Below, one piece after another: positions 33,457-34,910 of a DNA stretch of 64,000 nucleotides. The stretch spans positions 682,001 to 746,000 of the forward strand of contig NZ_CP016761.1 in assembly GCF_001642935.1 (NCBI RefSeq), in the 5' to 3' direction. Position numbers and translations under genes: made by a program. This DNA is from Fictibacillus arsenicus. Lineage in GTDB: Bacteria; Bacillota; Bacilli; Bacillales; Fictibacillaceae. The notes beneath the pieces were generated by a model. The model was not told the DNA's origin. It searched no databases and worked only from the letters and a program-made list of their open reading frames with translations. Positions within the stretch are counted from its first letter, which is position 1. The number at the start of each line of letters is the position of its first letter.

Positions 33457-33502
33457 TGCTTATAATAGAGCAGAGTACTAAAGTGAAAGGATGATTTTTA
33501 AG

Positions 33503-34222
33503 ATGCTACAAAATAAAGTTGCTGTTATAACAGGCGCTACCCGCGGATGCGGTAAGGCCATTGCAGAAAAATTAGGAACTCTTGGTGCAAAATTAACGTT
33601 AGTAGGTTCATCTGAGGGTATTTATGAAACAGCGGACGAACTGAAAAATAGAGGTTATGATGTTCTTGCAGTAAAAGCTGACGTATCAAATGAAACAGAT
33701 GTAGCTGATCTTTTTAAACAAACGTTTGATCATTTCGGAAAAATAGATATTTTGGTAAACAACGCAGGTGTTGGACAGTTTAAATTGGCCGAGGAGCACT
33801 CTTTAGCAGACTTTCAAAAGATGTTTGAAGTAAACGTTCAAGGTGTTTTCCTTTGCAGCACAGCAGTAGTTCCGCACATGAAAGAGCGCAAGGAAGGAAC
33901 GATCATTACGATTTCTTCTGATGTTGGACGAAGAACAATTGCAAACGGTTCTGTATACACCGCTACAAAATATGCTGTACAAGGTTTCTCTGGTTCGCTA
34001 GCTCAAGAGCTTCGCGAGTTTGGTGTACGAGTAGGTACGGTAAATCCAGGGGCAATTGATACGTATTTTGCAGATAGTGAACCGGGCCTTGATTTTAAAG
34101 AAGACTGGCTGAAGGTGACAGACATCGCAGAAGCAGTTGCATATATGGCAAGTGCACCAAAGCATATGGTCGTTGACGAGATCATGCTTCATCCACTTTC
34201 ACAGGAATATCCAAACGTATAA
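33503..34222 (+). CDS. Short-chain dehydrogenase/reductase
   Basis: 239 residues from ATG 33503 (AAAGGATG upstream); ATG 33491 would abut the RBS. Classical SDR: cofactor motif TGATRGCGKAIA, NNAG, catalytic Ser in ISSDVG and YTATK with Tyr and Lys. Substrate unknown. It ends 16 bases before the selenocysteine-type peroxiredoxin gene, which has its own strong RBS, so the two are probably one operon and may share a redox role. Confidence 0.88.
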   Translation: MLQNKVAVITGATRGCGKAIAEKLGTLGAKLTLVGSSEGIYETADELKNRGYDVLAVKADVSNETDVADLFKQTFDHFGKIDILVNNAGVGQFKLAEEHSLADFQKMFEVNVQGVFLCSTAVVPHMKERKEGTIITISSDVGRRTIANGSVYTATKYAVQGFSGSLAQELREFGVRVGTVNPGAIDTYFADSEPGLDFKEDWLKVTDIAEAVAYMASAPKHMVVDEIMLHPLSQEYPNV

Positions 34223-34238
34223 AAAGGAGGCTGTTCCC

Positions 34239-34802
34239 ATGGACTTGAATCAAAAATTGATTTCAATTGATCGTTCTGAGGCTGTAGTCCTGCGTGATTT
34301 GTTAGGTAAAGATAAGACATTCGTGGCTTTAGTCAGACACCTTGGCTGACCGTTCTGTCAGCATTTCCTTGCGCAGTTGCGCAAGTCATTCGATGAGTTT
34401 GAAGCGCGTTCGGTTAAGGTAGTCATTGTTTCACCTGCCGATCGGGAACAGATTGAAAAGTTTTTAGAAGTTCATGGTCCGTACCCTTTTAACATTTATG
34501 GAGATCCACAAATGAATGTATATAAGGAGATGGGAAATCACCGGTTCTCTACTTTGAAGAGCCTGGCCTATGTAGGCGCTGGGATTTTGAGCGGTAAAGC
34601 GAAGATAAGCGACATTATTCCGAAAGAAGAGAAGAAAAGAAAGCTTTTCTTTAGTGCAGTCAAGAATCAGGACGTAAATGTTCAAGGAAGTTCATGGCTG
34701 TTTGACCGCGACGGTGAAGTCTTGTGGAAGCACATGGATGATTCACCGAAAGATCATGCACGAGTGAAGGAGATTTTGAAGCAGGTCAGCGAAAACAAAT
34801 AA
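34239..34802 (+). CDS. AhpC/TSA-like (peroxiredoxin-like) protein with in-frame TGA, probable selenoprotein
   Basis: 187 residues if TGA 34347-34349 is read as selenocysteine at position 37. The frame is the same before and after the TGA, RBS AAAGGAGG precedes ATG 34239, and the residues around it, VRHLG-U-PFCQHFLAQLRK, match the redox loop of AhpC-TSA_2-like proteins, in which that position is Cys, giving a U-x-x-C pair with Cys40. Downstream motifs (VIVSPADREQIEKF, FNIYGDPQMNVYKEMG, SSWLFDRDGEVLW) are intact. A 7-bp hairpin lies 18 bases after the TGA. A stop mutation or sequencing error is the alternative. If it were read as a stop, a 36-residue fragment and a start-less remainder would result. 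Confidence 0.8.
34368..34385 (+). promoter_or_regulatory. Candidate bacterial SECIS element
   Basis: CTTGCGC and GCGCAAG form a perfect 7-bp stem with tetraloop AGTT. It starts 18 bases after the TGA and the loop is about 26-29 bases after it, within the window known for SelB-recognised hairpins, and the loop has a G at position two. Confidence 0.65.
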
Positions 34803-34819
34803 GGTTTGAAGTTGAAAGG

Positions 34820-34846
34820 ACCCTGTCACATGGAAAGTGGCAGGGT
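34820..34846 (+). terminator. Terminator after the peroxiredoxin-like gene
   Basis: Ten-bp stem ACCCTGTCAC with GTGGCAGGGT (one G-U pair), loop of seven, then a broken T-rich tail. Confidence 0.65.
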
Positions 34847-34910
34847 TCTTGGCTTATTTTAGGCAAATGGAAAGTAATTTAAGCTGTTAAAGTTCGCTTG
34901 AATGAGTTTA

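Follow-up and report, generated by a model that had tools for sequence, protein, structure and literature searches.

A predicted selenoprotein of AhpC-TSA_2/PRXL2 type encoded across an in-frame TGA in Fictibacillus and related Bacillaceae

Described selenoproteins and the Fictibacillus gene

Most families of bacterial selenoproteins include numerous versions with Cys. In animals, SelU carries selenocysteine (Sec) in a UxxC-type motif within the same Pfam domain as the protein described here, with Sec inserted by the eukaryotic system. For prokaryotes, the sections available to us of a review (PMC9312934) count 16 verified and 71 predicted selenoprotein families or subfamilies, the same domain with a different Sec motif being treated as a different subfamily. 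These sections have one AhpC-TSA_2 entry, with the motif UxxS, and they also list pfam00578 peroxiredoxin (Prx)-like UxxC/UxxU, pfam00578 UGC and Redoxin UxxC subfamilies. Selenoproteins of the Prx-like UxxC kind are already known, and hundreds of such sequences appear in the available text of the GOS survey (PMC2398784); the corresponding text of a 2006 survey (PMC1794560) records three selenoproteins in Bacillales. The open-licence literature yielded no account of the present Bacillaceae family among the matches listed, which is weak evidence of absence, and nothing joining Fictibacillus with selenocysteine or on a 'SelL-related redox protein'.

The window, the whole 64,000-nucleotide stretch of Fictibacillus arsenicus DNA that was analysed, carries on its forward strand (34239–34802) a gene that we assign, from its frame, Pfam matches, relatives and dN/dS, to an AhpC-TSA_2/PRXL2-like selenoprotein of 187 residues with Sec at position 37. 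Frame 1 runs from an ATG at 34239 to a TAA at 34800–34802 and has a single internal TGA, at 34347–34349 (+), read here as Sec37; a ribosome-binding site, AAAGGAGG, was read from the sequence at 34223–34230 (+), 8 bases ahead of the ATG. The protein around the TGA reads VRHLG-U-PFCQHFLAQLRK. An earlier note on this DNA had described one frame crossing the TGA with family-like sequence on either side, and had placed the TGA at the first Cys of a C-x-x-C pair. The frame was confirmed, Cys40 is present (codon 34356–34358, +), and a profile alignment with human prostamide/prostaglandin F (PGF) synthase agrees with the pairing: Sec37 falls on the first Cys of that enzyme's CxxC and Cys40 on the second. 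The TGA almost certainly inserts selenocysteine into a small peroxiredoxin-like enzyme.

Conservation of the TGA and of the frame beyond it

A pattern scan of an 84,980-species collection gave 49 named loci, and 20 further loci came from genomes with G handles, which include the window's own genome and otherwise overlap the named set. The site could be read in 67 of these 69 loci (47/49 named, 20/20 G), L107 and L108 being partial or broken, and all 67 have TGA, with no TGT or TGC, at the position where the earlier note had proposed aligning homologues. The readable loci reduce to 54 distinct 120-base stretches, every one with TGA. Named loci are of Bacillaceae type except for three odd names; these (L077, Chryseobacterium sp. 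ISL-80; L079, Paenibacillus sp. FSL R5-0490; L089, Pseudomonas sp. ISL-84) group with Mesobacillus/Cytobacillus in the tree, and their record names may be wrong.

No close Cys form was found in the 84,980-species scan, though one of its two patterns had Cys at the site (presumably matching Cys codons only), and very distant Cys orthologues would escape these searches. A search of 397 genomes of the order gave 69 matches at E ≤ 1e-50, the window's own genome among them, and each contains a single TGA; the next matches are G204, partial with a TGA and a TAG, and G309, a fragment outside the site. Among 398 genomes of the phylum, a strong match occurred only in the window's genome and in one already found, and other Sec proteins, as well as Cys proteins, were among the weaker matches. 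Cys in the position of Sec was seen only in distant proteins, for example PDB 9us9 and a Sinorhizobium plasmid protein with an ordinary CxxC, the one translated of three distant matches in the plasmid search. Other TGA-containing genes were encountered as well: two more genes for thioredoxin-fold proteins, L023 (G048) and L026 (G036), come from genomes of this order and have TGA at the active site; in other Bacillota, L144, L146–L153, L155–L157 and L161 encode distant AhpC-like proteins and have an in-frame TGA at U-x-x-C (U-x-x-G in L146).

The distribution of the gene was also compared with that of the Sec machinery. In 60 near genomes, any match was found in 25, and 20 of these have a full-length relative with one TGA (the match in L019 extends across a terminal TAG as well); the remaining five have distant thioredoxin-fold proteins only, one with its own TGA. 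Genes for selA, selB and tRNA-Sec each exceed the cut-off in 46 of the 60, so that the Sec trait is common among these relatives, for which the earlier statement that selenoproteins are uncommon in Bacillaceae does not hold. The gene occurs in 20 of the 46 near genomes with selA over the cut-off and in none of the 14 without, and all 20 near genomes that have it also have selA, selB and tRNA-Sec over the cut-off. Within the genus it is present in 15 of 18 genomes. Three sel-positive congeners (G007, G012 and G017) lack it, which indicates that the gene is dispensable and that other selenoproteins must sustain the machinery there. Both G007 and G012 keep the upstream gene for a short-chain dehydrogenase/reductase (SDR) and the right flank, with no trace of the seleno gene between them; a search for a near SDR orthologue in G017 found none. 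The G012 locus (L164; G012:C35) is also without most of the neighbouring HIT-family gene.

Substitution rates were estimated on either side of the TGA. Downstream, dN/dS was 0.048–0.135 in 13 finite pairs with the window sequence, ten of which have dS >1 and therefore give rough ratios, and 0.065–0.097 in the three pairs with dS <1; one of 14 pairs was saturated. Upstream, over 35 codons, the range was 0.11–0.44. Judged by these ratios, the sequence downstream of the TGA is under purifying selection, and the general decay among relatives that the earlier note had named as grounds for abandoning its reading was not observed.

A SECIS-like hairpin and the Sec machinery

A SECIS-like hairpin, CTTGCGC-AGTT-GCGCAAG (34368–34385, +), begins 18 bases past the TGA. 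Bases coding LAQLRK form its perfect 7-bp stem, the AGTT loop lies at 34375–34378, and the loop G at 34376 is 27 bases past the A of the TGA; direct reading and conservation thus bear out the stem, loop and spacing of about 27 bases claimed earlier. The available text of PMC1088965 gives a small apical loop with a G, just after the UGA, as a criterion for bacterial SelB-type hairpins, and a hairpin of this description, as expected for a SelB-dependent selenoprotein, was found. A search of Rfam with the hairpin, up to E 10, returned three matches (E 1.2 to 8.2), with no SECIS family among them.

Chance is an unlikely origin of this hairpin. The next 20 codons were replaced 50,000 times by synonymous ones, sampled according to codon usage in the window, and 41 of these versions (0.08%) reached an equally good stem, defined as a perfect stem of at least 7 pairs, a G at the first or second loop position, and a loop lying 15–37 bases after the TGA. 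Such a stem is present at 6 of 1518 TGA triplets on the + strand of the window. Conservation over the 54 distinct sequences is far stronger evidence than the recoding odds. In all 54, the Gln codon within the hairpin is CAG and the Leu codon is TTG, and at codon +8 Ala is encoded by GCG in 32/32 cases and Thr by ACG in 21/21. Among 15 Fictibacillus sequences, the two lowest values of synonymous change in 177 six-codon segments are those starting at +5 (0.085) and +8 (0.10), compared with 0.36 for the whole gene; a similarly low value (0.11) recurs near codon +94, outside the hairpin.

Pairing itself was assessed over 48 distinct rows, in which 333 of 336 stem cells (99.1%) hold standard pairs and 17 cells are changed on both sides. 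The covariation score was matched by none of 500 shuffles, and stems shifted from the true register pair in only 13–65%; the number of pair types was no higher than in the shuffles (5 versus 5.0). In L106, both arms are altered (TGC AGTT GCA), and Met stands where others have Ala/Thr, His where they have Arg; the RNA thus retains its stem although two amino acids differ. The AGTT hairpin core and the TGA stand at the same site in all of the 30 best of the 69 strong matches in the order, own genome included.

The window's genome, a single contig of 4.06 Mb, encodes the factors that such a hairpin would serve. Matches to selA (538 bits), selB (361), selD (408) and tRNA-Sec (58) are all above cut-off and lie within about 9 kb, and the tRNA-Sec was called by ARAGORN with anticodon TCA; the search for selA, selB, selC and selD proposed in the earlier note therefore found all four. 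The selD gene has a TGA of its own, as do all 20 selD genes fetched (18 of the genus and 2 others), and 26 bases past it is the hairpin GGCGCAA-GTT-TTGCGTC. This hairpin was spotted by eye, after which its pairing was checked in the 20 genes and it was folded alone; it is kept in 20/20, with 7 pairs in 19 and 6 in one and with the loop GTT in 19 and GTG in one. When the 72 bases that follow the selD TGA are folded together, a different pairing has the lowest energy. A third TGA gene of the genome has the hairpin TCAGCTG-GTT-CAGCTGA after its TGA. The similarity of the hairpins in the three TGA genes fits one SelB reading all of them.

Two further features of this genome were recorded. The third TGA gene (L162:1241; G000:C1 about 1495740), the second of Prx/Trx-like kind in the genome, encodes, by eye, a lipoprotein-like thioredoxin-fold protein (FTTAG-U-GLCQAQL) and is followed by a gene that we take to be cupredoxin-like; it occurs with its hairpin also in the congener G014, and similar TGA-holding matches are present in more Fictibacillus genomes. 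The interval between selB and selD (L109:5095-8527) holds a GT4 glycosyltransferase (best NF038229, 231 bits versus a cut-off of 400) and a PhnCDE-type ABC transporter, whose binding protein is similar, too, to members of a putative selenate-binding family (189 bits versus a cut-off of 250). This transporter perhaps serves selenium uptake.

We considered how else the interrupted frame might be read. Under table 11 the TGA ends the frame, as it would if a nonsense mutation or sequencing error had turned a Cys codon into TGA. The same TGA in loci of many species and genera and the low dN/dS behind it led us to reject such a pseudogene as next to inconceivable; moreover, two congeners that lack the gene show complete absence rather than decay, and decayed copies are rare (L107 and L108 of the 49 named loci, perhaps also G204 and G309). 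It is also very improbable that the gene is expressed without selenium, the UGA being read through by a near-cognate tRNA, or the halves translated separately, with the hairpin slowing the ribosome. The TTG at 34377 could start a downstream ORF of 141 residues, but no sense codon stands at the site in 67 loci, every one of the near genomes with the full-length form has the Sec genes above cut-off, and the hairpin occupies the position of a SelB element, with similar loops in selD and another TGA gene. We are highly confident that the gene encodes a thioredoxin-fold selenoenzyme of AhpC-TSA_2/PRXL2 type, with Sec presumably inserted at UGA37 via SelB and the hairpin and with a presumed role in redox chemistry.

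Fold, neighbours and proposed chemistry

Profile searches place the protein in Pfam AhpC-TSA_2 (PF13911; 50 bits, gathering cut-off 27), with AhpC-TSA (PF00578) at 43.9 bits against a cut-off of 26 and Redoxin at 29.1 against 26.6; PF13911 matches 15 of 15 family members at E ≤ 0.001. An AlphaFold model, computed from 43 rows and with Sec replaced by Cys, has a mean pLDDT of 89.6 and a pTM of 0.86, residues 101–130 being the least sure. The predicted model has a thioredoxin fold like that of PRXL2B, and Foldseek ranks human prostamide/PGF synthase first among its matches (TM 0.68/0.78), followed by 1-Cys peroxiredoxins and Bcp proteins. From sequence and model, then, this is a bacterial selenoprotein with a predicted AhpC-TSA_2 (PRXL2/prostamide-synthase-like) fold. 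No signal peptide is evident by eye, and the protein is probably cytosolic.

Residues R33, G36, Sec37, P38, L44, Q46 and L47, among others, are invariant over the 43 rows, and H34 is nearly so. By contrast, the position +3 from Sec is Cys in 45 of the 54 distinct sequences and Tyr in nine, all from Fictibacillus. These nine of the 15 Fictibacillus sequences are UxxY forms that lack Cys altogether, both in the 36 residues preceding Sec and in all that follow, and the Cys-to-Tyr replacement is one change on the 43-row tree (support 96/86; five of the nine Tyr rows included). The distant TGA protein L146 has Gly at this position. Position +3 thus varies while Sec does not: Sec is fixed, and the second Cys assists without being required. 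The U-x-x-C pair of the earlier note therefore stands for the window protein, in which Cys40 is the probable resolving Cys, and not as a general requirement.

An SDR-family oxidoreductase gene lies directly upstream (33491–34222, +; PF00106, 195 bits), as it does in all 10 named Fictibacillus loci, and is probably co-transcribed with the selenoprotein gene. An intrinsic terminator-like hairpin follows the pair (34816–34850, +); it is weak evidence alone (2 sites versus 1.1 in shuffles), and a stretch 79% identical to it follows the SDR gene in the congener G012, which lacks the seleno gene. The SDR neighbour pointed out earlier is thus borne out within Fictibacillus and fails in the 37 other named loci, 35 of which have no near SDR and two only weak matches; as a general partner, the SDR was rejected outside Fictibacillus. 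In L072 and 12 other named loci of Cytobacillus type, two genes stand upstream in place of the SDR, one that we take to be MscL-like and a second that also encodes a membrane protein.

In the mechanism that we propose, SelB with Sec-tRNA would bind the hairpin, whose loop holds G-U-U, and Sec would be inserted at residue 37, just ahead of the first active-site helix. The Sec37 selenolate may then attack a peroxide or a disulfide. Cys40 would resolve the oxidised Sec as a selenenylsulfide, and thioredoxin-type reductants would reopen the bond; in the sister clade with Tyr, which has no Cys, an outside thiol such as bacillithiol or thioredoxin would have to resolve the oxidised Sec.

Which substrate predominates is a matter of tentative ranking. 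It is quite possible, though the less likely case, that the main job of the selenoprotein is thiol-disulfide or other reductase chemistry rather than peroxide reduction: both the fold and the profile search rank prostamide/PGF synthase first, the protein has no T-x-x-U motif, and the available sections of PMC9312934 name the pfam00578 UxxC class thiol:disulfide oxidoreductase. However, the AhpC-TSA and Redoxin models score above their cut-offs, the fold matches include 1-Cys peroxiredoxins and Bcp, and the SDR, as a redox partner, is not general, being missing beside most non-Fictibacillus loci and persisting without the gene in two congeners. On these predictions, peroxidase-type chemistry may be ranked a little above other thiol chemistry.

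Beyond the single gene, we lean towards the view that this is a lineage-wide obligate selenoenzyme: Sec would never be swapped for Cys, and a genome would either retain the gene, UGA included, or lose it. One Fictibacillus clade would have Sec as the sole chalcogen nucleophile of the entire protein, making a one-selenol catalyst with an outside reductant, and selection on the hairpin could override the protein sequence. A widespread Sec-only family in easily grown bacilli would allow a direct test of why Sec is not swapped for Cys, and the natural switch from UxxC to a Cys-free UxxY lets one test what replaces the resolving Cys. Searches resting on TGA/Cys pairs, as in the available text of PMC1088965, would tend to miss a family without Cys versions, and databases may well list its genes as truncated or broken.

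Several described systems are close to the window protein. The canonical Sec peroxiredoxin motif TxxU (Table 1 of PMC9312934, in the part available) is absent, the residues here being H34-L35-G36-U37. The NCBIfam model for SelL-related redox protein (NF040769) matches 15 of 15 members scanned, but the window protein scores 92.8 bits against a curated cut-off of 120, and membership was dropped; SelL itself has two Sec residues according to the available text of PMC3316567. Human prostamide/PGF synthase (PRXL2B; PDB 9us9/9usa) is the best profile match (E 5.9e-8) as well as the best structural one, with its CxxC aligned with UxxC, yet it is a human enzyme with Cys rather than Sec and 20–23% identity. 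The pfam00578 Prx-like UxxC group shares the motif, and because the window protein exceeds the PF00578 cut-off it could be filed near those entries; the two could be the same broad group. It is set apart, by description, in that PF13911 scores higher here and that UxxY and the Cys-free form are unlisted in the available sections of the review. Nearest in domain is the AhpC/TSA family selenoprotein CAB1081847.1 (Table 1 of PMC9312934), likewise bacterial, of pfam13911 (AhpC-TSA_2) and with an active-site Sec; compared by description only, it has UxxS where the present proteins have UxxC or UxxY. As far as the open-licence literature shows, the apparently Sec-only and partly Cys-free subfamily described here looks new.
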